From NCBI GenBank assembly GCA_905233945.1, contig CAJOFY010000021.1, forward strand, positions 13,026 to 77,025: a DNA stretch of 64,000 nucleotides. The letters run 5' to 3'. Made by a program: the position numbers and the translations under genes. The DNA is from an uncultured bacterium (GTDB lineage: Bacteria > UBP6 > UBA1177). Position 1 is the stretch's first letter, and each line of letters starts with the position of its first letter. The notes under the pieces are model-generated. The model ran no database searches. It had not been told where the DNA came from and saw only the letters and a list, made by a program, of their open reading frames with translations. Below are positions 532 to 17,856 of the stretch, one piece after another.

Positions 532-565
532 AGTGTTTCTCCAAAATACAAACAAAAAACTCGTT

Positions 566-665: not shown

Positions 666-1262
666 TCAGCGGATACAGCGGAGCAAAACCTTGACTTCAT
701 TATCTACCAGGCAGTCTGTCTTTATCCCTGATGGTCCAAACTTGCAGAGACATACATGTTTCAAGATTCCGCTTTTATCTGGCTGAACAGAGGAAGACCA
801 TTGCAAATTTTTATCGAAACTGATTCCGCACATGACACTGATTTCGTACAAAACTTTAGCTTCCTCCTTTGTAGGAATACGCCAGTCATCAAAATTACCC
901 AATCTTAGTTCCTGCGTAAAATTAACGGCTTCGTTCCATGAAAACTTCAATGATCTTGACCACCAGTGTTTCTTCTTTTTTCTGGCGTACTCCTTCTGAA
1001 TCATGCTGATTCCCATAATAGGCGTCACCAGTTCAATATAACTGCCTCTGTCTATGTAGTTATACGGATCGTTTTTTGCTTCTTCAGGTGAGCGTGTGAT
1101 ATTTCTTAATGTTTTATCTTCGACAATTTTGATATTTCCAAGCAGCTTGATTTTGTCATCCGATAAAATCTGAGCAATTTTCAGGATTTCTCCGTCATCT
1201 TCTATTCGAAAAATCAGACCGTCAGAAGTTATATCATATTTTTTATCTACCGGTATTCCCAT
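666..1262 (-). CDS. Lcl/DUF1566-like domain protein with shared N-terminal module
   Basis: 198 aa, ATG preceded by GGAGGAATAACGC. Residues 1-45 (starts MGIPVDKKYD, then G-L-I-F-R-I-E-D-D-G) are the module shared with four neighbours. Residues about 75-198 form an Lcl/DUF1566-type C-type-lectin-like domain: the core pattern SWNEAVNFTQEL...NFDDWRIPTKEEAKVLYE...WSSS...LLRCIR is the family signature. No clear membrane span is visible, unlike its relatives, so the domain may stay in the cytoplasm or ride on a partner. It is the last gene of the train, 20 bp after the DUF6273 gene. Such domains usually bind peptides, sugars or partner proteins; a precise role cannot be read from sequence. Confidence 0.75.
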   Translation of the reverse strand: MGIPVDKKYDITSDGLIFRIEDDGEILKIAQILSDDKIKLLGNIKIVEDKTLRNITRSPEEAKNDPYNYIDRGSYIELVTPIMGISMIQKEYARKKKKHWWSRSLKFSWNEAVNFTQELRLGNFDDWRIPTKEEAKVLYEISVMCGISFDKNLQWSSSVQPDKSGILKHVCLCKFGPSGIKTDCLVDNEVKVLLRCIR

Positions 1263-1282
1263 GCGTTATTCCTCCGAAATTA

Positions 1283-2272: not shown

Positions 2273-2280
2273 TATTTCCC

Positions 2281-3669
2281 CTATCCGTCAGTTGAAACCA
2301 TCATAAATTTATGGGCAAAACATCCGAAATATCTGGCTTCATACCACTCTCCGTTGAGTTTGTTTGTCGTCACCAACGTATCAGGCAGAAGCGGGAGATC
2401 AACCATCTGGTCAAGCCGGTAGGGACCATAAACAATCTCATTCAGATAGATATAATACAGGTCATCACTGTAAGCTGATATCTCACCACCACCCGGAAGC
2501 GCAGCCGGATGATCCGGAGGAAGCGTCAAAAGCCGGTTGCTGTGATCCCAATATTCCTGAAGAACCCTTTGCGGCAGCGGCTGAAAACCCATTTTTCTTA
2601 AAACTTTGATATTTAAAGCACCTTCAAATTCTTCTCTAAAATTTTCAAATTTACTTTTTTTGGAAAAAACATCCCACCAAATATGTTTTGCTTTCTCATA
2701 ATATTCGTTATGTCCCTTTGTAACAGTAGTTGTTTCAATAAGTTCTATTAAATTCTGATCATACAGCTCCTTCAACACATCGGCATCGTCAATTATACAA
2801 TCTTCAAAATCTTCGTAGAGTTCATCTTCCAAAAAACATCCTACAAAGGCATGGTTATGAGTAAGGATTATCAGAGGATCCAAACCGGCAGCCTCGAAAC
2901 AGCTGGCAAAAAGTATTGAGGTATCAAAACAGGTACCGAGTCTTCTGGTAACAACTTCGTCCGCCAGTCTTACTCGTTGTCCCAGAGCGTTAAAAAAATC
3001 CCTCGGCGGTAAAACATAGGTTATTTCAAGTTCTTTCAATGCCGTATAAATAGACTTTATCTGGTTTTCGACAGATAACTTTGCATGCAATATTTGGATA
3101 GCAGATTCAGGATTACATTGTTGCAATTGAGAATAACCGTTCAACCCACCGTTCCCGTCCAAAATACAGCGTATCTCTCCTGCTCTTCGCAGAACACCTG
3201 TCAAAACCGGGTGGTTCGGCATTACAAAGGAAGCAGTGAATTCAGGAGAAACATTCAAAGGGCATTCATCCAAGGCAAGAAGAACCACATCATATTTTTC
3301 ATGATAAATAAGGGTGTTTCCTGAACAGAGATCAATAACATTGTACCCTTTTATCCTCTCGGTAAGCCCTACGAGAAAATCGAATGAAAGTTTAATATCA
3401 AGCTTTTCTCCGCCGATTTCTATAACCTGCCCCGGCATAACTGATCCGACATTCACTGATATATTTTCCGCGAATTGAGGCTCGAATGACAGAGTAAACC
3501 ACACATTGTCTATCCGTGAGTCCGTCAAATTTGTAATGACAATCTTTTGAATGTACGAAAAACTTGTTGCATGCATAGCATATCCTTGATAGGTTACCAC
3601 CGTGGCAACCTGTTGCATCGCAAAGTTTACTGCCGGCAAATACTCAAGTTCCGCTCTAAGCGCTGGCAT
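2281..3669 (-). CDS. Transglutaminase-like cysteine protease fold protein with C-terminal GYF_2 domain
   Basis: 462 aa, ATG with GGAGG. Residues 1-135 resemble the Ig-like N-terminus, and about 140-300 the transglutaminase-like region, found at the front of large DUF4011-type helicases (motifs VMPNHP, TYVLPPRDFFNALGQRVR, RRLGTCFDTSILFASCFEAA, LTHNHAFVGCFL). A catalytic-looking Cys247 and His273 are present, followed by an acidic stretch that could supply the Asp. Here the module is not attached to a helicase but to a GYF_2 domain at about 400-455 (YYIYLNEIVYGPYRLDQM), the same adaptor used by four other proteins of this train. It may be a protease or transglutaminase acting on a protein handled by the system; that role is an inference. 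Confidence 0.7.
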   Translation of the reverse strand: MPALRAELEYLPAVNFAMQQVATVVTYQGYAMHATSFSYIQKIVITNLTDSRIDNVWFTLSFEPQFAENISVNVGSVMPGQVIEIGGEKLDIKLSFDFLVGLTERIKGYNVIDLCSGNTLIYHEKYDVVLLALDECPLNVSPEFTASFVMPNHPVLTGVLRRAGEIRCILDGNGGLNGYSQLQQCNPESAIQILHAKLSVENQIKSIYTALKELEITYVLPPRDFFNALGQRVRLADEVVTRRLGTCFDTSILFASCFEAAGLDPLIILTHNHAFVGCFLEDELYEDFEDCIIDDADVLKELYDQNLIELIETTTVTKGHNEYYEKAKHIWWDVFSKKSKFENFREEFEGALNIKVLRKMGFQPLPQRVLQEYWDHSNRLLTLPPDHPAALPGGGEISAYSDDLYYIYLNEIVYGPYRLDQMVDLPLLPDTLVTTNKLNGEWYEARYFGCFAHKFMMVSTDG

Positions 3670-3703
3670 CTTTTACCTCCTTAAATCTTCTAATTTAAAA
3701 ATG

Positions 3704-4477
3704 TCATTTTTTTTTCTTATTCAACCACGTAATTGTTGCGTCTTCGTTGATTATAAAATCCTTCCCCTCTTTGGGGACGGAAACTATGTTATCATAAAAC
3801 AAGTCAGCCAAACAATAAAAACAACCTGCCTGATACCAGTTTCCGCCGAGCTTATCCGTTGTAACCATATAGTCCGGCATAAGCTGAAAAGCGCGCAGCT
3901 CGGCAAGTGTAATCGGACCGCAATATGAACCGTCCGTTAAAGATATTGCAATATAAAAGCTGTCATTATCATCAGTATGAATCCACTGAATTGGAGGAGA
4001 CGGCTGAGCTTCCTCGGTTTGCTGAACTTGCATGGACTGCAGGGATTGAGGCTGAGATTGAGGCTGAGATTGAGGCTGAGATTGAGGCTGAGATTGAGGC
4101 TGAGATTGAGGCTGAGATTGAGGCTGAGGTTGAGGCTGAGGTTGAGGCTGAGGTTGAGGCTGAGGTTGAGGCTCTGCTACAAAATAATTTGCCTGTTTTT
4201 GAGTTATTTCCGGAACATTAATATTGTCATTGTCGGAAGTTCCGTTAATAAGCTTGTCCACCTCAGATTTTTTAACCTCAAAGTAGTGCTCACATATTGG
4301 ACAACACACAAGATACTTTGTGTAAATAGGAATAAGCGGAATCCAGAAAATATGAAAAAAAGTTCTTATTCTGATAATATTAAAATGATTATCATTGTTA
4401 CAGTTGCCGCAATGGTAAACATCATGAGTGCTTCCCAATTCCTTTTTTAAATCTCTAATTCCAAAAATAATAAACAT
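3704..4477 (-). CDS. Zinc-ribbon protein with QP/QS repeat linker and GYF_2 domain
   Basis: 257 aa. Residues 1-70 match the zinc_ribbon_15-like family: MFIIFGIRD start, a CGNC pair, the hydrophobic FFHIFWIPLIPIYTKYLVC and a CPIC pair. A low-complexity Gln-Pro/Gln-Ser stretch (about 100-145) encoded by a 12-bp tandem repeat follows, then a GYF_2 domain (about 175-235, FYIAISLTDGSYCGPITLAELRAF). The two Cys pairs should bind one zinc ion. The repeat probably acts as a flexible spacer whose length can change by slippage. It lies between the transglutaminase-like gene and a second GYF_2 membrane protein and is likely an adaptor in the same complex. Confidence 0.7.
   Translation of the reverse strand: MFIIFGIRDLKKELGSTHDVYHCGNCNNDNHFNIIRIRTFFHIFWIPLIPIYTKYLVCCPICEHYFEVKKSEVDKLINGTSDNDNINVPEITQKQANYFVAEPQPQPQPQPQPQPQPQPQSQPQSQPQSQPQSQPQSQPQSQPQSLQSMQVQQTEEAQPSPPIQWIHTDDNDSFYIAISLTDGSYCGPITLAELRAFQLMPDYMVTTDKLGGNWYQAGCFYCLADLFYDNIVSVPKEGKDFIINEDATITWLNKKKK
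4045..4173. repeat. 12-bp tandem repeat encoding QP/QS
   Basis: Seven units of attgaggctgag followed by three of gttgaggctgag and a partial unit, perfectly in frame in the zinc-ribbon gene on the minus strand. Because the unit is 12 bp, slippage changes linker length without breaking the frame. It also creates long spurious open frames on the plus strand. Confidence 0.9.
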
Positions 4478-4509
4478 ATCTTACGCCCTCAATGCTACCT
4501 CTTAATTTA

Positions 4510-5232
4510 TTACCTGTTTACACACTTAATAAAACCTTCACCTGTTATTTGGTAATCTCCCTTGCTGATCGTTATAAATGGATCTTTCGGCTCAAAAGCA
4601 ATCCCACGGAGGAGTTCGAACTGACTTGCCGGGAACCAGTCATTCAGGGCTTCCGTTGTAACCTGAACATTGCTAGGAATTTCAGACTTTTTGAGCTGGT
4701 CATAGGTAAAAGGACCTTTCACTTCTTCTCCAAGCAGCAGAAAATATGAATCCTTTTCAGATGTTATAATTGTTGTTTGCACATTTTCATCATCTTTGCC
4801 TGGATTTTCCGCTGATTCCGAAGAATTTTGAGGCTGCAAACCGTCAGATGAATCAGGTTTTTCTTTTCCTACAAGCCATTTGATATAAAAAACTATTGAA
4901 ATAACAACTGCCGTCAGCGAAATAAAACCAAGTAAATAATATAATAAAGCGACCTCTTTTTCCTGCTGAGCCGCATGGGAAAAAGCGAAGAATCCGATTA
5001 CAGCAACAAAAAAAATCAGCATCAGAATCACAGTCTTCGTCGGAAATTTTGATTCTGCAGCATCTGTTTTCGGCTGTTCAGCACCTGCTATTTTTGTTCT
5101 TCCTATCGGAAACAGCTCACCTGTTGTCACATCAATTTTGGCAACTTTTTCCTTTATCTTTAGTTGGCCGTCTTCACTGATGCAAAAAATCGTGACCTCG
5201 GTGTCATCTGCCTTCATTTCGTACGTATTCAT
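4510..5232 (-). CDS. Two-span membrane protein with divergent N-module and C-terminal GYF_2 domain
   Basis: 240 aa. Residues 1-50 (EDGQLKIKEKVAKIDVTTGELFPIG) look like a diverged copy of the beta module of the neighbours. Two hydrophobic segments follow at about 67-85 (TVILMLIFFVAVIGFFAFS) and 97-120, placing both ends in the cytoplasm. A GYF_2 domain (about 165-215, YFLLLGEEVKGPFTYDQLKK) follows an acidic/polar linker. With N-module and GYF_2 on the same face, it could dock cytoplasmic GYF_2 or proline-rich partners such as the FtsK-like ATPase. No enzymatic motif is seen. It is separated from neighbours by 32 and 14 bp. Confidence 0.65.
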   Translation of the reverse strand: MNTYEMKADDTEVTIFCISEDGQLKIKEKVAKIDVTTGELFPIGRTKIAGAEQPKTDAAESKFPTKTVILMLIFFVAVIGFFAFSHAAQQEKEVALLYYLLGFISLTAVVISIVFYIKWLVGKEKPDSSDGLQPQNSSESAENPGKDDENVQTTIITSEKDSYFLLLGEEVKGPFTYDQLKKSEIPSNVQVTTEALNDWFPASQFELLRGIAFEPKDPFITISKGDYQITGEGFIKCVNR

Positions 5233-5246
5233 AACATTCTTTCTCT

Positions 5247-6050
5247 TTATTTAATATAAAAAACCTTTTCTTTCAGCATCTTTCCGTTGCACCAGATCTC
5301 GAATTTGTAGCTTCCTGAAATCCAATGTCCTTTATCTGTGCCTCCCCATCCAATTAATTCTACAGCTCCGCCGCCTTTGAAGATTTGTTTATTATCAGAA
5401 TATGTATATCCGTCTTTAGACCACCCTTCGCCTGTACTCAGTCCGAATGGTGTCAAAAATTTAACATCGAGTTTTATGCTTCTTGAATCCAGACTTTTAT
5501 AAACAATTTTGGGATAAATATAGGTCGTGTCTTTGCTATAAATTGTTTTACCATATTCTTCACCTTGATTACTCACTTGAATATCTTTTATAATTATAGG
5601 ATATTCGTCAGCCCATACTTTTAATTCATTCTCTAAATTCTGCTTTTCGTTCGCCAAATTATTTTTTTCGTTCTCAAGGCTTTGTTTTTCGGTCTCCAGA
5701 GTCTGCTTTTTGTCTTTTAAACCACGGTTTTCATTCTCCAAGTTGTAAATTCTGTGATTCAGATAATCCTTGTTATTTTCAGATTGAACAACATATACGA
5801 CGGCAAAAATCAAACCTACTATGAGAAGAAAAATTAAAAAAACTTTTAAACCGCCGGAACCCTTGTTTTCCTCCTCAGATTCGACTTCAGTTAAGTCGAC
5901 TTCTTTCTGGACGGGTTTTCTTTCACCTATCGGTTCAACATTTCCGTCAGGCGAAATATTTGCTATTCTTTTTATGGTTCCGTCGTCCTGAATTGTGAAT
6001 ATCAATCCTTCAGGTGTGACCTGATATTTGTTGTCACTTGGCATTCCCAT
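5247..6050 (-). CDS. N-module / transmembrane / coiled-coil / beta-domain protein
   Basis: 267 aa, ATG with GGAGG. Layout: N-terminal module (1-45; MGMPSDNKYQVTPEGLIF, then D-D-G-T-I-K-R-I-A), acidic linker, one transmembrane segment (about 67-87), a coiled coil of LENEK/LANEK heptads (about 95-148), and a C-terminal beta-rich domain (about 150-267) ending GHWISGSYKFEIWCNGKML. The same order and a similar C-terminal domain occur in 6139-7020, so the two are paralogues. With a single N-in span, the coiled coil and beta domain would be extracytoplasmic. Function not recognised; the layout suggests a structural or sensing subunit of an envelope complex. Confidence 0.7.
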   Translation of the reverse strand: MGMPSDNKYQVTPEGLIFTIQDDGTIKRIANISPDGNVEPIGERKPVQKEVDLTEVESEEENKGSGGLKVFLIFLLIVGLIFAVVYVVQSENNKDYLNHRIYNLENENRGLKDKKQTLETEKQSLENEKNNLANEKQNLENELKVWADEYPIIIKDIQVSNQGEEYGKTIYSKDTTYIYPKIVYKSLDSRSIKLDVKFLTPFGLSTGEGWSKDGYTYSDNKQIFKGGGAVELIGWGGTDKGHWISGSYKFEIWCNGKMLKEKVFYIK

Positions 6051-6138
6051 TTTTAACCTCCATAGCCTTTTTCTTGTTGGAATTATTCCTTGCTACGTTT
6101 CAACTACTCTTCACACCGGTCAAATTCAGGTTCGTTCA

Positions 6139-7020
6139 TCAATAAATGTTCAACTCACTTGCTTTCAAAAATTTGCCGTCAGACCAGATTTCGATTCTGG
6201 TTGTTCCTTTCGGCCAGAATCCTTTTTCACTACTGCCCCAGGTGGTTTTAAAAAGATAATTTCCTCCGTCCGTGCGGAAAATATCAACACCTTGAACAGA
6301 ATAAGTATAATTTTCTTTACTGTTTGCTCCTTTTTTCAGATGACCGTTCGCATCAAAAATCTTAACATCCAAGGCTTTCTGACCATAAATATAGCTTGCG
6401 TATCTGATTCTGAGCTGCAGAAACATTGCACTTTCACTCGTGATCTTTTCGCCGAAATCGGAAATTATATCCTTTGAATTCTTTGTCGTATTTCTGACCT
6501 CGATTGCAGTTATCATAAAGAGTCCGTCATCCTGTTCGTATGCTGGAATTCTATTTTCCGGCTCCTTCGGTTTTGGGGTAGTATCATCCGTTACTCTTAG
6601 ATTGTTAAGAGCCCGCTTTTCGCAGATTTCGAGTTTCACCTCCAAATCACTGTTTTTTTCAGCACTTGCTGCAAGTTTTGTTTCAACTTCCCTCAGATCG
6701 AGCTCTGTCTGCGAAGAATCTTTTCTTAGTTTTGCAAGCTCGAACACCTGCTTTTCGCAGTCGGATTTTTCATCTAACCAAAGAACCGCAAGAATTATGG
6801 TGGCGACAGCAAAAATAATCAGAAAAAACATCAAAAAGAAATTCAGGGAAAGATGTGTTGCTTCGGAAAGCGCCTCTTCATCGACCTTTCCGTGTTTACG
6901 GAAAGGTTCTATCTTTCCGTTCTCAGAAATTCTCGCAATTCTTACAATCGTTCCGTCATCTTCTATGCTGAAAATCTCTCCCTCTTCCGAAATTTGGTAT
7001 TTATTGGAACTGATTCCCAA
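6139..7020 (-). CDS. Paralogue of the upstream N-module / TM / coiled-coil / beta-domain protein
   Basis: 293 aa. A TTG start at 7020 is chosen because it yields MGISSNKYQ, aligning with the other module proteins; the ribosome site (GGAGCGG) is modest. Module at 1-42 (G-E-I-F-S-I-E-D-D-G-T-I-V-R-I-A), transmembrane segment about 60-82 (FFLMFFLIIFAVATIILAVLW), coiled coil about 88-140, and a C-terminal beta domain with ENYTYSVQGVDIF and GFWPKGTTRIEIWSDGKFL closely matching 5247-6050. It lies 88 bp upstream of that gene in transcription order. Probably a heteromeric partner of its paralogue. Confidence 0.7.
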   Translation of the reverse strand: MGISSNKYQISEEGEIFSIEDDGTIVRIARISENGKIEPFRKHGKVDEEALSEATHLSLNFFLMFFLIIFAVATIILAVLWLDEKSDCEKQVFELAKLRKDSSQTELDLREVETKLAASAEKNSDLEVKLEICEKRALNNLRVTDDTTPKPKEPENRIPAYEQDDGLFMITAIEVRNTTKNSKDIISDFGEKITSESAMFLQLRIRYASYIYGQKALDVKIFDANGHLKKGANSKENYTYSVQGVDIFRTDGGNYLFKTTWGSSEKGFWPKGTTRIEIWSDGKFLKASELNIY

Positions 7021-7074
7021 CTGTCCGCTCCGTGTTCAAATCTTAACGAGAATCTTCAGAAAGGAACTTGCAAA

Positions 7075-7974
7075 TTAGACTACGCCAGGGGTGTCGAATT
7101 CTTTTCTTGAGAGATCACCAGTCATAACCATTTCAAATGATATAAGCCATTTTGCGGCCATAGCAAGCATTGTTGCCGCCGTTGTCGATGTCTCTCCGAC
7201 CTTTATATCCTCTGCCCGTGCCGTGCAGAGATAAAGCAGGTCACTGTCTTTATCTCTAAGAACATGATGAGGAGTCCATCCTATTCGCTGGATTATCTGA
7301 TCCATCGACGGAGTAAGGAGAAAAACTTTGACAGAACTTCCCATTTTCTGAACCGGATGGTTGTTTTCATAAACAGCCATAACTTCCCATGTCTGTCTTG
7401 CAGAAAAATCATTCTCGTCAGCGTTGAAACCTTTCCAGATCCCTGGTGTCAAAGTTCCTGTCCATGCCAGACGACCGTCAGGAAGTGTTTCAAGCTGGAA
7501 ATGCGGGAACCATTTAGCCATTGCAGCTTTTTCCACAGCCAGAAGTGACGGATCCTTCTCATACCACTGTTGAACACTTGCCAAAATAATGTTGTTGGGG
7601 ATTTTTATGCCTCCATTCTTTCCTGCTTCACCGTCAGGAGAGAGTTGAATCGGTTTTTTGCCTATAATAGCATCTCTTATTCTTTGGCGTTCCGCCCGTT
7701 CCTCTGCCTCACGTTTTAATTTATCCGCCATTTCCTTTTGTGAAAGCTGCTGTGCACCAGCCAAAATGATATTGTTGGGAATCTTAATGCCTCCATTCTT
7801 TCCCGCTTCACCGTCAGGAGAGAGTTGAATCGGTTTTTTGCCCATAATAGCGTCTCTTATTCTTTGGCGTTCAGCTCGTTCCTCTGCCTCACGTTGTAGT
7901 ATAGCCGCCATCTCCTCTGGTGTGCGTTGCTGTGCACCAGCAAATTCTGCCCTGGGAATAACTAAATTTAACAT
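7075..7974 (-). CDS. E2-like (UBC-fold) protein with duplicated 60-residue N-terminal repeat
   Basis: 299 aa. Start chosen at 7974 because GGAGG sits 6 nt upstream; a longer ATG frame to 8028 lacks this. Residues 12-71 and 72-131 are near-identical 60-residue repeats (AGAQQ start, REAEERAERQRIRDAI helix, IQLSPDGEAGKNGG loop). Residues about 150-285 follow the order of prokaryotic E2-like domains: GRLAWTGTLTP, a strand WEVMAVYENNHP, VKVFLLTP, PHHVLRDKDSDLLYLC, then a threonine/alanine-rich helix ending AAKWLISFE. Cys250 in LYLC occupies the expected thioester position and His236/237 the expected histidine. It would accept a modifier from the E1-like enzyme at 8983-10206. The fold call rests on motif order only. 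Confidence 0.6.
   Translation of the reverse strand: MLNLVIPRAEFAGAQQRTPEEMAAILQREAEERAERQRIRDAIMGKKPIQLSPDGEAGKNGGIKIPNNIILAGAQQLSQKEMADKLKREAEERAERQRIRDAIIGKKPIQLSPDGEAGKNGGIKIPNNIILASVQQWYEKDPSLLAVEKAAMAKWFPHFQLETLPDGRLAWTGTLTPGIWKGFNADENDFSARQTWEVMAVYENNHPVQKMGSSVKVFLLTPSMDQIIQRIGWTPHHVLRDKDSDLLYLCTARAEDIKVGETSTTAATMLAMAAKWLISFEMVMTGDLSRKEFDTPGVV
7582..7941. repeat. 180-bp tandem duplication inside the E2-like gene
   Basis: Two head-to-tail copies (7762-7941 and 7582-7761) of a 180-bp unit, nearly identical in DNA and in frame. The high identity indicates a recent duplication or ongoing homogenisation. Confidence 0.85.
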
Positions 7975-8119
7975 TTTTGCCTCCTGAAATAAAACATTGT
8001 TAATACTTGCCAAACACACAATTATCATTTAATCAACCAATTTTTATCCTTGCATGGGAAATGCCTCAAGTTGCAGAGTCTGTTCTTTTCAGTATTCATA
8101 AACCCGTTTGCACCTCATC

Positions 8120-8986
8120 TTAAAGAAGTCCGCCATTGTCTTCCGGATCCGGTTTCAGCAAAAAATTTTCTACATTGTATGCCTTGTTCACAAGATTATG
8201 CTGAATATTCATTCTCCCGACTATCGCTAAAAATATAACCATTCCCAAAAGTAAAAGAATTATTCCTAACAATGTGGGAAAGAAAAGTCCTATAATAATC
8301 ATAATTATGGACACAAACGACGACGCAACATAAGCGCTTCCAGTAATAAGAGGAATCGAATCATGTTTATGCAGAAAATTTGCTTCGCGGTTACACCAGT
8401 TGTAATTCCAGAAACATCCGTAAAAACCGAAAGTAATCAAAGATAAAAACAGAGATTTCCAGAAATCCGGTGTATGCTCTCCGTCTTCAGAACATGTAAT
8501 ATTAGTTTCCCCTCCCATAAGAAAGGGTAAAATCAAGCCGTAGATTCCGCATGTAACAATTGTAATAAAGATGGTTGTCGCATAACCTCTGTTTGTCGGA
8601 AGCGGCGCATCAGGTCTCTGTTTAGCTGAACGGAAAGCATAATCCTTCTTTACTATTTGACCATTTTTGTCGATTTCACAATCCGGAGGCAGGTGCGTCA
8701 CCTCTATGTTCTGCTCCAATGTAGTCTGCTGTGACGAGCCAGGTTCCGGCGATCGCTGTGACTGAGAAGTGGCATTGGCCGGTCCCTGCGTAGAAGTGTT
8801 TTCACGGCCTGTTGTTTGTGAAGATTGGAACAAGTGAAGAAACTCAGTGTATTCATGCGCCTCTTTCCACCCTCCATCCGGTGCATCGGTACAGATCAAA
8901 GTATTTTCAACAATCGGCTTTTTGGTCACATCAATGAAAGAAAACGGCCCTTCAACCCGTCCGTCTGTTTGAATAAAATATTTCAT
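8120..8986 (-). CDS. GYF_2 domain fused to DUF4234-like membrane domain
   Basis: 288 aa. Residues 1-50 are a GYF_2 domain (YFIQTDGRVEGPFSFIDV...GGWKEAHEY). A polar Ser/Gln-rich linker follows, then a membrane domain of about four hydrophobic segments from about residue 150. It has the DUF4234-type pattern IVTCGIYGLILPF, LITFGFYGCFWNYNW and a long final hydrophobic pair ending near 270. Likely an inner-membrane anchor presenting GYF_2 to the cytoplasm. Its stop overlaps the... E1-like gene is upstream and overlaps it by 4 bp, so translation of the two is probably coupled. The 145 bp between this gene and the E2-like gene contains no other gene that I can support. Confidence 0.65.
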   Translation of the reverse strand: MKYFIQTDGRVEGPFSFIDVTKKPIVENTLICTDAPDGGWKEAHEYTEFLHLFQSSQTTGRENTSTQGPANATSQSQRSPEPGSSQQTTLEQNIEVTHLPPDCEIDKNGQIVKKDYAFRSAKQRPDAPLPTNRGYATTIFITIVTCGIYGLILPFLMGGETNITCSEDGEHTPDFWKSLFLSLITFGFYGCFWNYNWCNREANFLHKHDSIPLITGSAYVASSFVSIIMIIIGLFFPTLLGIILLLLGMVIFLAIVGRMNIQHNLVNKAYNVENFLLKPDPEDNGGLL

Positions 8987-10206: not shown

Positions 10207-10221
10207 GGATACCCTCCTTAA

Positions 10222-11889
10222 TTATTTACTACACTTTTTTTCACATTTTTCTTCCCACTTCTTTATAGGATCTTTATATTTCCATTTAGCATTGCAATGT
10301 TTACAAGTATTAATCGTGTCAAGAACTGTACAAGCCTCTTTTTGGTTACAATAAGCTTTCTCGACTTTCTGTTTTAATGTCTGAGGATCAATTTTGTTAA
10401 TTAGATCATGAACTTTTTGCTTTTGTTCATTACAGTTTGAGACCTTTGTGAGAACTTTTTTGAGATTTTCCAAATGTGTATTGTAGCTGCTACCGCCTTT
10501 GTGGTTAAGCAACTCATTTTCATAATATTGTTTTGCTTTTTTAAAGTCACCGTCATTTTCTAGAAGTTTCGCACATTCTTTCTCATTATTATTACCATTA
10601 CCAGCAGGTGGGGTATTTTTAGTCTCTTTTGAAGCTGGCGGATTAACTGCAACCTGTTCAACCTGTTCTTTTGGTTGGCTGCCAACTTCTTCCGTTTTTT
10701 CTTCAGGTTTAGCAGGTGCAACATCAGCGTCCGGTATCTCTGAATTTTTGTCGTTGCCTCCTTGTTCGGCAGATCCTTGCTGTTCCGGTATAGCCTCATT
10801 TGTTACAGGTTTGTTCTGAGCCCCTGCCTTAGCTTGTTCTGCTTTTCGCGCTTCCTCGGCTTGCTTTGCTTCAGCTTCTTGTTTCTTTCGTTCTTCTTCA
10901 GCTTTCTTTGCTTCAGCTTCCTGTTTCTTCCGGTCTTCCTCGGCTTTCTTTGCTTCAGCTTCCTGTTTCTTCCGGTCTTCCTCGGCTTTCTTTGCTTCAG
11001 CTTCCTGTTTCTTTCGTTCTTCTTCAGCTTGCTTTGTTTTCTCTTCTGCCAGTCTTAGTTCGTTTTGCTGTTTTTCTGCTTCCGTTTCTTTATTACTTCC
11101 GATGCTATATAATCCCATCAAACCCACAAAGACAACGAGTGCAAAAAATGTTTTCGGATGTTCCAAAACAAGTTTTTTAAAGATGCTGGTGACTGTGTCC
11201 GGAGTTTGGATTATTACCTGCGGTTTTTCGTGATGTTCGCGGTTTTGAGTTGTCCTGCGCGGCTCTTCGCGGTGCGGCGTTGCCTGCTGAGGTTGCGAAG
11301 ATGATGACGGTTGAGATGCTGACGGATGTTCCTGACGCGTGTTCGTTTTTTTGATTGCATCTATCTCTTCGATTGTAACACCTGGTTTCAGTTTCAACAA
11401 TTCTTCCGGAATAATGTCATCCCCGACACAAGTTTTGACTTTGGTATAATTCAATGGAGAATCGACGTGATACATCGTCATTCTAAATTCCGGGTCAATA
11501 TTGACAAGACCAGAAATCGCGCCGTAAGAGGGATTCAATTCTGCGAAATTTATGTTGGTTCCGTCGTCTGTACCAGAGAAAAAATCCATGCTGCCTGGAT
11601 GTCTGTGCCAAAGCCCGAGCAACCCTAGCTTCTGTTCATATTTGCCTGCAATCTGATCGACCACTCTTTTCGCAAGACTCTCATCATACTCCAAATAGGC
11701 ATAACGATGCGTTGAATTATTTCCTGGCGGAATAACCTCAACAACAACCCAATGCCCGCCTTCCAGCACATATCCCAACAAAAGTCCGCCTGTTTCGACT
11801 GGATCCTTATCATAAGTTTCGTTCTTTATATCCTGATAGGCTCTGTCCGAAAAAATGACTACTTCACATTTTTGATTTTCAGTATTCAT
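10222..11889 (-). CDS. JAMM/JAB metalloprotease with transmembrane span and TolA-like coiled coil
   Basis: 555 aa. Residues 1-175 are a JAB/MPN+ domain with all metal ligands: Glu32 (ETGGLLLG) and HRHPGSMDFFSGTDD, giving His95, His97, Ser105 and Asp108 in exact HxHx7SxxD spacing. These enzymes cleave isopeptide or C-terminal extensions of ubiquitin-like proteins. A polar linker leads to one transmembrane segment (about 242-262, FFALVVFVGLMGLYS), then a 13-residue-repeat coiled coil (KKQEAEAKKAEED) and a C-terminal domain with five Cys in the last about 45 residues. The protease is therefore cytoplasmic, tethered to a helix that may span the periplasm. It abuts the second JAB gene with no spacer; N-terminal halves of the two are clear paralogues. 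Confidence 0.85.
   Translation of the reverse strand: MNTENQKCEVVIFSDRAYQDIKNETYDKDPVETGGLLLGYVLEGGHWVVVEVIPPGNNSTHRYAYLEYDESLAKRVVDQIAGKYEQKLGLLGLWHRHPGSMDFFSGTDDGTNINFAELNPSYGAISGLVNIDPEFRMTMYHVDSPLNYTKVKTCVGDDIIPEELLKLKPGVTIEEIDAIKKTNTRQEHPSASQPSSSSQPQQATPHREEPRRTTQNREHHEKPQVIIQTPDTVTSIFKKLVLEHPKTFFALVVFVGLMGLYSIGSNKETEAEKQQNELRLAEEKTKQAEEERKKQEAEAKKAEEDRKKQEAEAKKAEEDRKKQEAEAKKAEEERKKQEAEAKQAEEARKAEQAKAGAQNKPVTNEAIPEQQGSAEQGGNDKNSEIPDADVAPAKPEEKTEEVGSQPKEQVEQVAVNPPASKETKNTPPAGNGNNNEKECAKLLENDGDFKKAKQYYENELLNHKGGSSYNTHLENLKKVLTKVSNCNEQKQKVHDLINKIDPQTLKQKVEKAYCNQKEACTVLDTINTCKHCNAKWKYKDPIKKWEEKCEKKCSK
10858..11037. repeat. 39-bp tandem repeats encoding AEExRKKQEAEAK
   Basis: About four and a half 39-bp units in the JAB-coiled-coil gene. 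Nearly the same DNA occurs at 1-100 in the left-edge gene, about 10.8 kb away in the same orientation, so the two could recombine and delete or shuffle the genes between. Confidence 0.8.
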
Positions 11890-12726
11890 TTACTTACTCT
11901 CCGCATTTTTTCTTTGTTTTTTCAATAATTTAAGATTCATATAGCTTCGCTGGGCTTTTTTCACAAACTTCTCAAGGAGATCGTTCTTGTCGCTTGTATT
12001 GTCAACAATAGCTTCAAGCATCTCGTTTGCATTTCTCGTATTTTCAACAATAGCATCCAGTCTCGCTATAATTGCAGCCGTATCATCACCATAGGAAGGA
12101 ACATCCGGAACTTTGTTGACGTTTGAAAAGTTCTCCTCTTCCGAAAATTCATTCATATCCTCGCTGTAACTGCATAGTTCTTCTGTATCTCCAGCGATTT
12201 CAGTCGGAATCTGCAGCATTGAATCCTTCACATGTTTCAATGCGAAATATTCTTCCGGAATCATATCGTCTCCGACTTTAAAATTGACAGCTTCATATTT
12301 CAGAGGGTCGCTAACATGCCAAATCTGAAAACGGAAATCTGGATCGATATTGACCAGCCCGGAAATAGCCCCGACTATTGAAAACTTTGCAAATTTGAGG
12401 TTGCTTCCGTCATCAACAGACGAGAATGTATCATAGCTTCCAGGGTGGCGGTGCCATAAACCTAACACAGAAAGCGGAATTTCATATTTCGAAGCTACAG
12501 AATTTGCGAGATAGTTCACAAATTTTTCATCATACTTAAAAAATGCACTTTTGTGAACCGAATCCGGTCCTGGCGGAAGAACCTCCATAACAATCCATAT
12601 CCCGCCATCCAAAACATGACCAAGCAGAATGCCGCCTGTCTCAAGCGGATGTTTACTGAATGTTTCATCGATAATCGCGTTATAAGCCCGATCCGAAAAA
12701 ACAATAATATTACAGTTTTCACTCAT
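11890..12726 (-). CDS. JAMM/JAB metalloprotease, soluble paralogue
   Basis: 278 aa. JAB/MPN+ domain at 1-175 with Glu29 (ETGGILLG) and HRHPGSYDTFSSVDD (His92, His94, Ser102, Asp105), again perfect HxHx7SxxD. The C-terminal about 100 residues are acidic then helical (IIARLDAIVENTRNANEMLEAI..., basic tail KLLKKQRKN), with no transmembrane segment. It appears to be a soluble relative of the membrane-tethered JAB protein immediately downstream. Two catalytically intact JAMM enzymes in one train suggest one processes a precursor and the other removes conjugates, but which is which cannot be told. Confidence 0.85.
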   Translation of the reverse strand: MSENCNIIVFSDRAYNAIIDETFSKHPLETGGILLGHVLDGGIWIVMEVLPPGPDSVHKSAFFKYDEKFVNYLANSVASKYEIPLSVLGLWHRHPGSYDTFSSVDDGSNLKFAKFSIVGAISGLVNIDPDFRFQIWHVSDPLKYEAVNFKVGDDMIPEEYFALKHVKDSMLQIPTEIAGDTEELCSYSEDMNEFSEEENFSNVNKVPDVPSYGDDTAAIIARLDAIVENTRNANEMLEAIVDNTSDKNDLLEKFVKKAQRSYMNLKLLKKQRKNAESK

Positions 12727-12740
12727 TTAACCACCTGTTT

Positions 12741-13028
12741 TCATCTAGTGTGTTGCCTGAAATTCTGCGGAATATCAAAACCTGAACCACCCGGAACACC
12801 ACAGCAGCTTTCATTTAGCTCGTTCAACTCACGCATTGCGTTATCAAGGTCATCAAGCAGTGTTTCCAAAGAGTCGCAACAGTTTGAAAAGTTGCCTTCG
12901 AATTCATCAGCTTTATATGTAAAAAAATTATAGCCTACAGAATCCTTCCAGAATTCTTTGGCTTCATCCATTGCTATCCTTAATTTTCCCTGTTCTACCT
13001 TCAGGTCATTTACAATTCCCTGTGTCAT
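12741..13028 (-). CDS. WXG100-like small helical protein
   Basis: 95 aa, ATG with GAGGTGAAGT. Predicted helical hairpin; the turn has FWKDSVGYNFF in the place of a Trp-x-Gly motif, as in diverged WXG100 proteins. The tail contains CCGVPGGSGFDIPQ. It sits in the WXG100 cluster between a coiled-coil/zinc-ribbon gene and the JAB genes and is a plausible substrate or partner of the FtsK-like ATPase. Assignment is weaker than for 13730-14023 and 14036-14308. Confidence 0.55.
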   Translation of the reverse strand: MTQGIVNDLKVEQGKLRIAMDEAKEFWKDSVGYNFFTYKADEFEGNFSNCCDSLETLLDDLDNAMRELNELNESCCGVPGGSGFDIPQNFRQHTR

Positions 13029-13036
13029 ACTTCACC

Positions 13037-13717
13037 TCAAGATTTTTTAATTCTTCGACAAACACAGTTACGAATCGGCCTTCCGCAATTCTGACAAAAA
13101 ACCGGAGCTGGTTTTTCCATTGCCCCGGAATCAACTGCGCGCTTGACGTCAAGAGACAAATTGGTCTGTTCATATATTCCGAGCTGCTCAAGACATTCAT
13201 CAAGATGGGAAACCAGTTTTTCGGAATAATCTCCGGATATTCGTTTAAGTTCATATCCGGGACCGGCAGGGATCAGAAATGACGGTTCACGCCAGAATTG
13301 TTCTACACAGTGTTTCTGCCAGCTTATGATTTTTCCGGCTCTTTCGTAATTAGATCTCCATTTGTATTCCTCATCCTCGGCGGCTTTAACTTTTTCTTGC
13401 GCCACATCGACTCTGTATGATTCCAAATCACAACTCGGACACCAGTTGCCGTCTTCATCCTTTTCCTGAGAGGCTTCGCAGGCGGCAAGATCATTCTCGG
13501 CATCACTTAATTCATTCTGCGCCTCTCTAAGTATTTCTTTTGCCGCTTCCCACTTCTTCTCGATCTGTTCACGGATGGAATCCATCATATCCAATTCTCC
13601 GCGAATTTCAGCATCTACTGTCTCCATCAAAAAAGTGGCCCTTGCTGAAAAACTATCGATCGCTACAGCCAGCTCCTGCACAGCTTCCGGACTTACATCT
13701 ACTTTCGAATCTGCCAT
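13037..13717 (-). CDS. Coiled-coil protein with C-terminal zinc-ribbon-like motif
   Basis: 226 aa. Residues 1-120 are mostly long helices (SFSARATFLMETVDAEIRGEL, KKWEAAKEILREAQNELSDAE), a WPSCDL-like WCPSCDL pair occurs near 95, and the C-terminus ends CQNCGRPIRNCVCRR, four closely spaced Cys likely binding zinc. No enzymatic motif. Size and helical character suit an LXG-like or accessory secreted factor of a WXG100 system, or a chaperone; I do not recognise a named family. It lies in the tight cluster with 8-12 bp gaps on both sides. Confidence 0.5.
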   Translation of the reverse strand: MADSKVDVSPEAVQELAVAIDSFSARATFLMETVDAEIRGELDMMDSIREQIEKKWEAAKEILREAQNELSDAENDLAACEASQEKDEDGNWCPSCDLESYRVDVAQEKVKAAEDEEYKWRSNYERAGKIISWQKHCVEQFWREPSFLIPAGPGYELKRISGDYSEKLVSHLDECLEQLGIYEQTNLSLDVKRAVDSGAMEKPAPVFCQNCGRPIRNCVCRRIKKS

Positions 13718-13729
13718 TTGATGCCTGCT

Positions 13730-14023
13730 TTACAAACTCATTCTTGTATTTTCCGCTTCTTTGACAACATCGATTCGCGGCTGCAGATATCTTGTCGCCC
13801 AATCATAATATTTTTGAGAAAGTTCCATTATCTGTTCTTTTCTTGAGCGAAAACTAGTTTCAAATTCTTCAAACTTTTTATCTTTCCAATCCTCGTTGAG
13901 CGTCTTGATGCTGCTTTCCACGAATTCGTAACAATCATTTAAACTTTTAGACAGTGCTATCAAATCACTTTGAAGCTGCTCCAACTCTTTTGAACCGACC
14001 TCGGTATGTGATGCTATTGCCAT
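13730..14023 (-). CDS. WXG100-family protein
   Basis: 97 aa, ATG with GGAGGG. Two helices joined at LNEDWKDKKFEEFETSF (about 43-60), where W-K-D replaces W-x-G as in many non-actinobacterial WXG100 members. Length is exactly that of the family. Directly precedes the coiled-coil/zinc-ribbon gene and follows 14036-14308, to which it is paralogous. Expected to form a helical-hairpin dimer and to be recognised by the EssC-like ATPase two genes upstream. Secretion is inferred from family knowledge, not seen. Confidence 0.7.
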   Translation of the reverse strand: MAIASHTEVGSKELEQLQSDLIALSKSLNDCYEFVESSIKTLNEDWKDKKFEEFETSFRSRKEQIMELSQKYYDWATRYLQPRIDVVKEAENTRMSL

Positions 14024-14035
14024 TTTTCCCTCCGA

Positions 14036-14308
14036 TTATAAAGCCAAGTATGTTCTCAAAGTCTTTTCCAATGGATACAGAATTTCTGCCTCGAACTCGT
14101 CTATCTCTTTGCAGAGAGGCTCAATTATCTCCTTATCTTTCTCGAAACCTTCCTTAAATTTATCAAACTGTGAATCTTTCCAGCCCTGAGCAACCGTTTC
14201 AATCGACTGCTCTGTCTTTCTGAGCTGCTCTCTCAAATCATCAGATGTCTCGTTAAGTTGTCTCCTAAATAAATTTAATGAATCAACATCATTAATTACT
14301 CCCGACAT
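14036..14308 (-). CDS. WXG100-family protein
   Basis: 90 aa, strong site AAGGGAGGGAAAAATG. Helix-turn-helix with VAQGWKDSQFDKFKEGF at the turn; length and pattern fit WXG100. It is the first gene after the FtsK-like ATPase (11 bp gap), the classic position for an ESX/T7SS substrate. With 13730-14023 it may form a heterodimer. Confidence 0.7.
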   Translation of the reverse strand: MSGVINDVDSLNLFRRQLNETSDDLREQLRKTEQSIETVAQGWKDSQFDKFKEGFEKDKEIIEPLCKEIDEFEAEILYPLEKTLRTYLAL

Positions 14309-14319
14309 TTTTCCCTCCC

Positions 14320-17300
14320 TTATCCTTCATAAGTTTCAAAATCGAATTTGCCGTAAGGTTTGAATTTTATTAAAGTATTTCTGCTCGTATTGCAGTAGTA
14401 TGCCCTGAATTTTGAACTTGGTCTGTTCAAGACAAAAAGTTTGCTTGCAGCGGGCGAATCAATAAGCCTAATGGAATCCCTCTCGCTCATCTGAAGCACG
14501 ACTTTGTGGTCAAAAATCTGAAGGGGACTGTCGATTCTCGCAAGATTCGAGAGATTGTCGACCTGAAGAATCGTGTGGACTCCGACCATGGGACCGTGTT
14601 TTAAAACGAAATCAAGCAAAGTTCCCGCTTCTGATACTTTAGCGCCGTATTTTGTAGCCTCCTGATCGAACATCGTTCCGCGCTGGAAAGCATAGATCGA
14701 AAGATAGATACTATGGAAACGCACATCTTCATCCTCTGTCGCCTCGCGCTTCTCTATTTCAGTCTTGATTTCATTCAATGCTTCAAGAACATCTGATTTT
14801 TTCGAAGCAAAGTGAATTGCATTCGGGAAAACGCTTTCAAAACCTTCAAACGCCTCTTTAGGAACACTGTTTAAAACATCATAACTTTCAGTAAAATTCA
14901 TAACATAGAAACTTGCGCTCTTGTTTTTCTGACCGTCACGCGCAAACATTGTAGATGTCATGGCGATTCTCTCCGCCACATCGGGTTCTCCACCGATTAC
15001 AAGTATGTTGCTGTTCGATTCATTCCTGATTGACGCATGAACATCGACATCGCTGATGGCAATTGATTCACCGAAGTAGATACCGATGCCAGTTGAACCA
15101 GGAAAATCCTTTGCTTCCGTATGTTCTTTCGCCAGTTTGCAATCGCGGTAGGTTGGCAGATCGTTGCTTCTGAAAACCAGAGTATCGACATTTTCAAATT
15201 TCTGATTGCCAGCTGCGAATCTTGAAAGTTCCGTAAGAAGTGAATCAATATCCTTTTTCGGAAAGAAGAAGGAACGTACCAGACGGTTGTCATATTCAGA
15301 ACCGGACTGGGAATTGTAGATGCATTCGCCTGTTGACAAAAGCGGCGTGTTTCTTCCGCGTGTTTCAATCAACTGGCTGAAATCACTCGGTTTAGCTCTG
15401 AAGACAATACGGTTCGCGATAAGATCTTTAGGAACAGAAGCACCTGAAACAAGCTGTTGCGTTGCAAGAATCAGATTGATTCCGAATTTGCGGTATTCCT
15501 GAATGATGATTGCGATTTTATCCTGCGCATCGCGGCTCAACACGTCGTTTCCTTCAAAGAGTTTCTGGAACTCGTCAATTATTACAAGAAGTCTGGGAAC
15601 AACAAGATCAGGTCTTTTGCGTTTCAAATCAACGATACTGCTGACCTCGTTGTCACGACAAAGCGCCATTCGGCGAAGGCCTTCTTCTTTCAGCTCGTTG
15701 AGAATGCTGATACCAAATTCACGCTCTGCTTCAGGCGCGATAACACGTGCATGAGGAAGGTGATGCAAAGCGTAATTATTAAATTCAACTCCCGAAAAAT
15801 CGAGGAGATAGAAGTTAAGCTCGTTGGGCGAGTATGTAAGTGCGGCATTTAAAATAATCGAATGCAAGAATACACTCTTTCCAGATCCGGGAATACCGAT
15901 GACGATTGCGGTGTTCTGGCCGCTCTCCTGAGAGATAACCAGGCTCTGGACAGATTTATCCTCTCCGATTCCGAACGGGATTTCGATTTTCGAAGCGCTT
16001 CTGCCGCTCCACCATTGTTCTTTTGCCGGAACAAAATCTTTTCCGAAAACGGTTTCGACTTCACCGGCTGTCTCCTCGACCCCGCTGTTCACATAGCTGA
16101 TAGTACTTTCCAGAACATCTTCCGGAAGATCGTCGAAATGTTTTTTGCTGACATCGTCTTCGCTCTTTGTAAAATCAAATTCCAAAACAGAGCATTCCGA
16201 AAAATTTCTTTTAAGGAGAGTGTAGGATTTTGAATAATCTTCCGAAGATTCAACAAGATTGGAATCGACAAGAATTATCAAACTGACCCCGGCTCTGATG
16301 CCGTTTTTCATAATTTTTTTCAGAAGATTGAGAGACTCGCCGGAAAATCCTGCCGGGAAAGCCTTGATTACAACCAAATTATATCCTTCCTTTTTCTCTT
16401 TCCCGAGGTTGAATTCATTCAGAGAATCAACAGAGCCAACCAGAATGTTCTGATAGATATTTTCAATCCTACTCTGCAGGGAATTCAACTTGCGGCTCAC
16501 ATCATCAGATCTGACCACCAGTGAAAAGACATCTTTATTTAGATGTTTAAGGGTATTTGAAGTTCCGAGCATCTCGTCGGAATCAATCATTGTAAGATTC
16601 AGCATTCCAGGTTCACAAGAAGCAAACGATCTGATTATCAATGAATTTATTGCATTAAAACAACGTTCCTTACTCGAAGAGTCATATTTTACAACCATAT
16701 TTTTATTATCAAAGAGAGAAATAAAAGACCTGTTCTCCACATCAATAAATTTATCAAACAACTCATAGCTGTTCACAAACTTGCCGAATTCCATTATTGA
16801 GGACGGAACACTTTCATTGTTTTTAAGATTTTTCCAAATTTTCTCAGAAAACTCCGCAACTTCACAACGTGTCGAGAAAAATTTATTGAACCGTTCGTTA
16901 TAGGAACTCAGGCTCTTCTCAACTTCCGGGACAGAACTTGCAGAAAAATCTCTTACAATACGGTTGACATTCTGACGATAATACTTGCACTTTTCCTCAC
17001 TCTCATTCTTTTTCTTTCTGTATTTATCTTCAATCTGCTGAAGTTCAACCGAAAGGTTTGACTCCAAAGCACGTGCTGCCATCTCAGAAGCCTTTCTGAT
17101 TTCAGCTTCATATTTGCTTCTGCAATCTTTTTTTGAAGCCTCTTCCTCAGCCAGAATTCTTCTAAGTTCAGATGCACCGAACAACTCAGCCTGGGCACAC
17201 ACATATTCTTTCTTATCCTTGATTTTTTTTGAAATCTCCGTGAGCTTATCAATCTGTTCCACAACTCTCCCGGAAGATTGTGAATAGGTATCTATGTAAT

Positions 17301-17856
17301 AATTAAGCTCAGCATCATCCGACTCAAAAACTTTTTTATAGGAGTTTGTTTCTTTCGGCAAAATCTGCAAAAACGATTTTGTTACCGTTGTAAAATCATC
17401 AAACAATTCCTTAAAGAACTCCATAGGATCCTTGTTAATATCAAAATCCTTAACAAGAGGATCGACTGTGTGATGCACCGATGTAACCTCGCTTGTTCTT
17501 GTCGTTGTGGTCTGCTCAGGTCGCGATTCAGGTCTCGGCTGCGGTTGAGGTTCAGGTCGCGATTCTGGGTTCGGCTGCGGCTTAGGTCGTGGCACTCTCG
17601 TCGTGTTTCTTGGAGTTTGGTTGACCGGTCTTGGCGGCTCAGGTGTAGGTACTTGTTCTGCCGGATCATCAGCCGTCAAATCATTGAGAAACTGACGCAG
17701 CTCAGGCACATCCTTTGCCAGAACCCATTCGTTATTTGCCATATATGTTGCATGTATCGGAGTGTCAACAAAGACATTAAAAACTTTCATATCACCCAAA
17801 GTATATGGGCCATAAATGACATTGTTCAACTCAAAATAGTAGCTAACGTTTCTCAT
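14320..17856 (-). CDS. FtsK/SpoIIIE (EssC-like) ATPase with N-terminal GYF_2 domain
   Basis: 1178 aa, ATG with GGAGG. Residues 1-55 are GYF_2 (YYFELNNVIYGPYTLGDM), then a Pro/Arg-rich linker (about 85-150) of the kind GYF domains bind, and a long helical region (about 195-330). An FtsK-type ATPase follows with Walker A GIPGSGKS (about 653-660) and Walker B LLVIIDEF (about 755-762), plus LILATQQL. A further P-loop-like domain (NILVIGGEPDVAERIAM) lacks a canonical Lys/Ser and looks degenerate. No transmembrane segment is evident, unlike canonical EssC. It would power translocation of WXG100 proteins. First gene of the train, directly behind the promoter at 17896-17924. GYF_2 at the front of such an ATPase is unusual. 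Confidence 0.85.
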   Translation of the reverse strand: MRNVSYYFELNNVIYGPYTLGDMKVFNVFVDTPIHATYMANNEWVLAKDVPELRQFLNDLTADDPAEQVPTPEPPRPVNQTPRNTTRVPRPKPQPNPESRPEPQPQPRPESRPEQTTTTRTSEVTSVHHTVDPLVKDFDINKDPMEFFKELFDDFTTVTKSFLQILPKETNSYKKVFESDDAELNYYIDTYSQSSGRVVEQIDKLTEISKKIKDKKEYVCAQAELFGASELRRILAEEEASKKDCRSKYEAEIRKASEMAARALESNLSVELQQIEDKYRKKKNESEEKCKYYRQNVNRIVRDFSASSVPEVEKSLSSYNERFNKFFSTRCEVAEFSEKIWKNLKNNESVPSSIMEFGKFVNSYELFDKFIDVENRSFISLFDNKNMVVKYDSSSKERCFNAINSLIIRSFASCEPGMLNLTMIDSDEMLGTSNTLKHLNKDVFSLVVRSDDVSRKLNSLQSRIENIYQNILVGSVDSLNEFNLGKEKKEGYNLVVIKAFPAGFSGESLNLLKKIMKNGIRAGVSLIILVDSNLVESSEDYSKSYTLLKRNFSECSVLEFDFTKSEDDVSKKHFDDLPEDVLESTISYVNSGVEETAGEVETVFGKDFVPAKEQWWSGRSASKIEIPFGIGEDKSVQSLVISQESGQNTAIVIGIPGSGKSVFLHSIILNAALTYSPNELNFYLLDFSGVEFNNYALHHLPHARVIAPEAEREFGISILNELKEEGLRRMALCRDNEVSSIVDLKRKRPDLVVPRLLVIIDEFQKLFEGNDVLSRDAQDKIAIIIQEYRKFGINLILATQQLVSGASVPKDLIANRIVFRAKPSDFSQLIETRGRNTPLLSTGECIYNSQSGSEYDNRLVRSFFFPKKDIDSLLTELSRFAAGNQKFENVDTLVFRSNDLPTYRDCKLAKEHTEAKDFPGSTGIGIYFGESIAISDVDVHASIRNESNSNILVIGGEPDVAERIAMTSTMFARDGQKNKSASFYVMNFTESYDVLNSVPKEAFEGFESVFPNAIHFASKKSDVLEALNEIKTEIEKREATEDEDVRFHSIYLSIYAFQRGTMFDQEATKYGAKVSEAGTLLDFVLKHGPMVGVHTILQVDNLSNLARIDSPLQIFDHKVVLQMSERDSIRLIDSPAASKLFVLNRPSSKFRAYYCNTSRNTLIKFKPYGKFDFETYEG

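Follow-up and report, generated by a model that had tools for sequence, protein, structure and literature searches.

What does a bacterial ubiquitin-type conjugation operon conjugate when none of its products matches a ubiquitin-like protein (Ubl) family in Pfam? The question is raised by a train of 17 open reading frames (ORFs), lettered a to q, that lie co-directionally on the minus strand at positions 666–17856 of a 64-kb stretch of DNA (hereafter the window) from an uncultured UBP6 bacterium. A preliminary description of the window had listed here, as one co-directional set behind a strong promoter, an FtsK/SpoIIIE ATPase, three WXG100 or WXG100-like proteins, an E1-like ThiF enzyme, an E2-like protein, two JAMM proteases and several GYF_2 or N-module membrane proteins. 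All of these genes are present (Table 1). Absent from that account are the repeat units at the N terminus of the E2, on which our proposal of an unrecognised protein modifier is built.

Repeat units ahead of the E2 domain

Protein h consists of a short leader, two 60-residue repeats and an E2 domain; its start was corrected to 7974 from 8028 (Shine–Dalgarno sequence AGGAGG). The repeats are 87% identical to each other and at most 25% identical to any other unit. E2s of relatives are preceded by one, two, or three and more such units of 46–60 residues ending in xIPxGKLA. Conservation over 81 units is 99% for a hairpin Gly and, in the tail, 95% for G, 84% for K, 99% for L and 94% for A. Copies within a protein are closer to each other than to any relative's copy in 15 of 23 two-unit proteins, which resembles the pattern of homogenised poly-modifier genes. 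Inside the E2 model the unit forms a helix and then short strands, at moderate confidence.

The unit also exists on its own. In nine loci it is encoded by a small gene of its own, immediately ahead of a unit-less E2, and the protein ends precisely with PxG[KV]LA. These loci belong to Clostridia (L078, L079, L100), Coriobacteriaceae (L076, L077, L110, L111), Methanosarcina (L096) and a prophage contig (L112). When 19,866 stop-terminated frames were scanned blind, six ended in PxG[KVI]LA, each of them directly before an E2; the archaeal case first came to light there. The E2 loci left without a detected unit comprise two truncated by contig ends and three (L094, L097, L099) with a diverged repeat ending in IPKTVVSA or similar; no unit was found in six loci with JAB but neither E1 nor E2. 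Judged by these sequence patterns, the tandem units of h may form a poly-modifier precursor, and the units are probably the modifier.

Candidate enzymes for such chemistry are encoded alongside. Both JAB proteins (l and k) exceed the Prok-JAB cut-off in Pfam (34.5 and 33.5 bits), and the JAMM motif E...HxHx7SxxD is complete in each and invariant in the JAB alignment, bearing out their description as catalytically complete. The E1-like protein j scores 76.9 bits against Pfam ThiF, above the cut-off, and its GxGxxG and Arg, Lys and Asp adenylation residues are conserved. The E2 of h has no Pfam match; its identity is upheld by PADLOC E2 models, which match h at 5e-8, and by the invariance of Cys250 and His237 across 44 sequences. 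Its predicted core has predicted local distance difference test (pLDDT) values of mostly about 90, and the top Foldseek matches of the fold are mostly E2 or UEV domains, although weak (E≥0.12).

The genes that directly follow E1 encode, for the most part, membrane proteins bearing a nine-residue motif (INEFGEIIR, VDEYGQIHR, IAEDGTIKR, IGPDGRIIR), hereafter the tag. A pattern composed after examples had been seen picks up the tag in 56 of the 165 proteins encoded immediately downstream of E1 in 33 loci. Shuffled sequences give 0.9, and of 600 other genes 15 have it, many of these lying in the same operons. The same hairpin recurs in some modifier units (IAPDGNVTK), with 8 strict matches among the 81 against 0.16 expected. 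The tag-bearing membrane proteins may be partners or targets of conjugation.

We propose that the operon joins two modules. Module 1 would be a self-contained conjugation system, its modifier (about 46–74 residues, ending in xIPxGKLA) made either as one to three or more tandem copies fused to E2 or from a separate upstream gene. JAB would cut after each ...LA, yielding modifiers with a C-terminal Ala and a free E2. E1 would adenylate the Ala carboxylate and hand the modifier to the E2 Cys, from which it would be transferred to partner proteins by E2. Removal of attached modifier would fall to JAB as well. The likely partners would be membrane proteins of the operon; the tag (INEFGEIIR/IAEDGTIKR) is present in many of them. 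Module 2 would be recruited or switched by the modification; it comprises the soluble EssC-like ATPase, the WxD helical proteins and the coiled-coil partner, a set known as a mobile ATP-driven complex of conflict systems. That the modules are joined, and that a small modifier with this ending is cut by JAB, activated by E1 and conjugated by E2, seems to us evenly poised between right and wrong. Our wider formulation is held somewhat more tentatively: an unrecognised modifier class, with the ending -GKLA and no recognisable beta-grasp, would be made as tandem E2-fused copies, released by JAB, attached to tagged membrane proteins and, in some bacteria, wired to the EssC-like ATPase and WXG100-like proteins. 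If true, this would bear on the origin of ubiquitin-type chemistry and of polyubiquitin genes, offer a possible regulator for the orphan ATPase/WXG100 module in diderm bacteria, and provide a short peptide tag usable to predict targets. A poly-modifier precursor fused to its own E2 would then be the only one known to us.

Spread of the conjugation triad and the ATPase module

Loci were gathered with a JAB profile in named genomes, and the sample is therefore conditioned on JAB; many are contigs of metagenome-assembled genomes, taxon names are those of the record titles, and E-values of the iterated hidden Markov model (HMM) searches are relative to small databases. The 58 JAB loci come from Bacteroidota, Planctomycetes, Clostridia, Coriobacteria, Chloroflexi, Acidobacteria, Cyanobacteria, Methanosarcina and others. 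E1 and E2 each accompany JAB in 53–54 of them in the order E2-JAB-E1, an almost invariant triad; the window's order is rearranged, with E2 after E1.

The ATPase q scores 86.5 bits against Pfam FtsK_SpoIIIE, above the cut-off, as the preliminary description implied, and has Walker A (GSGKS) and Walker B (IIDEF) motifs behind an N terminus with a weak GYF_2 match and a helical region. Hydropathy gives no transmembrane (TM) segment in q, nor in 20 of the 24 further ATPases that were analysed. Its small neighbours exist as described, but their class stands only in part: p and o score 23.9 and 18.8 bits against a curated WXG100 cut-off of 27.3, are also under the NCBIfam cut-offs, and together with m carry W-K-D (W-x-D) instead of W-x-G. 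Protein m stands where cluster 10/27 proteins stand in other loci, and coiled-coil partners of the n type also lie beside related ATPases in Deinococcus, Caballeronia, Microcystis and Bacteroidota. A Rhodococcus plasmid locus (L038, 9328–13677) has a related ATPase with a TerD-like N-terminal region where that of the window is GYF-like; by inspection of the two, the N-terminal adaptors of this ATPase class appear swappable.

The ATPase and WxD proteins occur in 17 loci bearing E1 and E2, the window included. Bacteroidota have them upstream of the triad; in Clostridia, Chloroflexi and Acidobacteria they follow it. Among 29 genomes searched whole, ten contain this ATPase class (>300 bits; ordinary FtsK ≤145 bits), and in all ten it shares a contig with the triad or JAB, adjacent except for one at ~18 kb. 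A prophage contig (L112, from IMG/VR, with terminase/portal-like genes and a resolvase) carries the whole set: separate modifier, E2, JAB, E1, ATPase, WXG and coiled coil. Most triads stand without the ATPase, and the link between the modules is therefore optional. As loci L037-L041 and L103 conversely have the ATPase/WxD module and no triad, we regard the two as separable modules that were repeatedly combined, not as one obligate machine. Four Microcystis loci have ATPase/WxD with JAB but no E1, E2 or modifier. They are among cyanobacterial loci in which a JAB of the same family adjoins a large WD40/STAND-like protein (L091, L092, L093, L098; L036, L040).

The locus looks sporadic, because other genomes of the phylum sample (28 genomes) show no relative of this E1, only partial ThiF matches; a sample of 391 Clostridia genomes gave one further match. 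Scans of viral contigs returned no E2 and one prophage contig, L112, for E1. Carriage on plasmids was considered and set aside, with no E2 match among 72,556 plasmids.

Triad loci show further variations. Some Bacteroidota have, between JAB and E1, a PrsW-family intramembrane protease (Pfam match checked in L043) fused to a degenerate E2-like domain (L043:8043-9260, L045:6697-7863, L046:2057-3262). Some JABs (L042:10001-11575 and similar) have hydrophobic stretches and a C-terminal E2-like, perhaps UEV-like, domain found by the E2 HMM. An immunity-type SUKH (SMI1/KNR4) gene lies directly upstream of E2 in two Bacteroidota (L067:8786-9349, Pfam-checked; L081:8804-9304), and radical SAM genes lie near the triad in L068, L065, L080 and L112.

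Known systems and competing explanations

The closest chemical parallel is the cyclic-oligonucleotide-based antiphage signalling system (CBASS). There cGAS, which is not beta-grasp, is conjugated through a C-terminal Gly or Ala, and the JAB Cap3 cuts a cGAS–cGAS fusion at that point (PMC10097602). The operon shares with CBASS Cap2/Cap3 an E1, E2 and JAB without a beta-grasp Ubl, a (presumed) substrate C terminus of Gly/Ala and a (presumed) tandem substrate, which in CBASS is cut there by JAB (PMC10097602). Unlike Cap2, an E1–E2 fusion, E1 and E2 are separate here, and a dedicated small protein, fused to E2, is presumed to be the substrate; no operon protein matches a CD-NTase. If the units are modifiers, they would constitute a second route, besides CBASS cGAS, for E1/E2/JAB conjugation of a non-beta-grasp protein. 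A modifier fused to its E2 also has a counterpart in the EAD1-Ubl-E2 proteins of FtsH-ternary systems, for which release by JAB was predicted (Kaur et al. 2020; PMC7159879). Those have one beta-grasp Ubl with EAD1, a RING E3, FtsH and vWA, whereas the window lacks all of those partners, and its units are repeated and not recognisable as beta-grasp.

A TM-less EssC-like ATPase with WXG100 proteins is a known mobile module of conflict systems, found with type III-A CoCoNuT (coiled-coil nuclease tandem) and TerY-P loci (PMC11090510). Module 2 matches it in the TM-less FtsK/EssC ATPase with N-terminal coiled coil, the two WXG100-like proteins and the coiled-coil protein, but is combined with E1/E2/JAB and GYF/N-module proteins and not with vWA/kinase/phosphatase, McrBC or nuclease; no TerY-P triad or McrBC neighbour is among the operon's Pfam matches. 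The 6a-6e, Bil and Bub operons likewise hold E1, E2 and JAB together (PMC1779556; PMC13373217), but no beta-grasp Ubl was found here and the E2 is of a different family without a Pfam match. This gene combination was not found described in openly accessible papers, to which our literature search was limited. Pup and UBact are small modifiers possibly without a stable fold, as the units may be, although Pup is attached by the PafA ligase and not by E1/E2.

Several points weigh against the units being modifiers within such a two-module system. A lone unit is modelled as alpha-beta-beta at low confidence (pLDDT 64; predicted template modelling score, pTM, 0.38) and is not recognisable as beta-grasp. 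In fused forms and in most of the separate ones, the xIPxGKLA motif stands at the N-terminal leader as well. GKLA may instead serve as a conserved linker or a docking strand, and domain borders are where genes naturally split. The E1 has no clearly invariant candidate for a transthiolation Cys, C161 and C341 being near-invariant. To these are added the majority of triads that have no ATPase, the JAB-conditioned sample and the after-the-fact tag pattern mentioned above. The repeats might then be a non-covalent leader (docking strands for E1, JAB or E2, a tether or a pseudosubstrate), with E1 and E2 conjugating another operon protein by its own C terminus, as with CBASS cGAS. The motif at the extreme N terminus, the lack of a stable predicted fold in the lone unit and the working of CBASS without a separate Ubl (PMC10097602) are in keeping with this. 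We nevertheless think it rather unlikely: LA is the exact end of the separate units in all nine loci, the end of the unit is its most conserved part, and no other inspected operon protein family has a conserved C-terminal Gly/Ala.

The remaining alternatives concern the two modules together. According to the preliminary description, modification might control or tag translocation by a type VII-like system; WXG substrates would then be tagged or gated for export. NCBIfam EccC/EssC models do match q at 1e-19 to 1e-21, and WXG100-like partners adjoin it, but the scores are far under the cut-offs. A type VII secretion system was rejected because there is no membrane-anchored EssC/EccC here, nor in nearly all relatives, W-x-D replaces W-x-G, and YukC/EssB (PF10140) and YukD (PF08817) are absent from the genome in a search with a positive B. 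subtilis control. The authors who described such TM-less homologues in conflict systems likewise noted the need for another mechanism and doubted ordinary secretion (PMC11090510). True secretion is accordingly improbable. Alternatively, both modules may form one anti-phage or anti-plasmid system, in which the ATPase/WxD complex would process DNA or protein of the invader, and conjugation would set off effectors, for example the transglutaminase-like protein c. We find this possible, if short of probable; it concerns role, not chemistry, and is compatible with conjugation of the units. A role in phage conflict is plausible because the distribution is sporadic, a prophage carries the whole set and residues 30–371 of c match the N terminus of the NCBIfam anti-phage ProA model (4e-64, under the full-length cut-off); the TM-less EssC module of CoCoNuT loci (PMC11090510) points the same way. 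Against it, many partners are membrane and envelope-type proteins, which an envelope-stress role would fit equally well, and no known defence system was called as such. Finally, two unrelated operons might merely adjoin. The preliminary description had held that the association would be chance if relatives of the two gene sets lay mostly in separate loci, and each set does occur apart: most loci have the triad without ATPase, and some the reverse. Chance is still excluded, and can be given next to no weight, because at least five phyla have the sets together, in two gene orders, and genomes with both have them on one contig within ~18 kb.

Operon layout and surroundings

Genes q (ATPase) to i (DUF4234 protein) are separated by –4 to 15 nt and those downstream of i by up to 145 nt, with a Shine–Dalgarno sequence at most starts. 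The promoter that had been reported ahead of the set corresponds to a promoter-like TTGACA-N17-TATAAA site ~40 nt before the ATPase start; a generic promoter scan missed it because that scan demands T as the last base of the second hexamer. GYF_2 domains are also borne out, with a score above the Pfam cut-off in e and weaker ones in three other proteins.

Table 1 Features of the operon and its promoter, with positions in the window
Feature	Positions	Strand	Basis or remark
Promoter-like site TTGACA-N17-TATAAA	17896–17924	–	0 expected in shuffles
q, FtsK/SpoIIIE (EssC-like) ATPase, 1178 residues	14320–17856	–	FtsK_SpoIIIE Pfam match, no TM
p, WXG100-like (W-K-D)	14036–14308	–	WXG100 5e-5, below cut-off
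o, WXG100-like (W-K-D)	13730–14023	–	WXG100 0.0019, below cut-off
n, coiled-coil protein	13037–13717	–	conserved partner of this ATPase class
m, third small W-K-D protein	12741–13028	–	motif and position only
l, JAB/JAMM isopeptidase	11890–12726	–	Prok-JAB match, JAMM motif
k, JAB/JAMM isopeptidase, long C-terminal extension	10222–11889	–	Prok-JAB match, JAMM motif
j, E1-like ThiF enzyme	8983–10206	–	ThiF Pfam match
i, GYF_2 (weak) + DUF4234 membrane protein	8120–8986	–	tag IDKNGQIVK
h, putative modifier-modifier-E2 fusion	7075–7974	–	repeats + E2 domain
Leader of h, MLNLVIPRAEFA	7939–7974	–	
Putative modifier unit 1 of h, 60 residues	7759–7938	–	ends IPNNIILA
Putative modifier unit 2 of h, 60 residues	7579–7758	–	ends IPNNIILA
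E2 domain of h	7075–7578	–	invariant Cys250 and His237 (299-residue numbering)
g, N-module membrane protein	6139–7020	–	tag IEDDGTIVR
f, N-module membrane protein	5247–6050	–	tag IQDDGTIKR
e, GYF_2 membrane protein	4510–5232	–	GYF_2 over cut-off
d, zinc-ribbon/GYF-like protein	3704–4477	–	zinc-ribbon just below cut-off
c, transglutaminase-like/GYF-like protein	2281–3669	–	
b, DUF6273 membrane protein	1283–2272	–	
a, N-module/Lcl_C protein	666–1262	–	Lcl_C sub-threshold; tag ITSDGLIFR

Beyond the left window edge the N-module gene train runs on for ~13 kb along the same contig, with further N-module, zinc-ribbon, DUF6273, Lcl_C and Sel1 proteins. A reverse transcriptase gene (RVT_1, 1e-22; window positions –7365 to –6094) lies there among N-module genes with Lcl_C (C-lectin-type) domains. 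A diversity-generating retroelement, suggested by this gene and the Lcl_C proteins, was rejected, as no template/variable repeat with A-specific changes was found in 21 kb. At the left edge of the window, an N-module gene with a coiled coil and a TonB-like C terminus (contig positions 12521–13580, spanning window positions 1–555) is interrupted by a run of N. The host is diderm, as had been suspected, because its genome encodes BamA.

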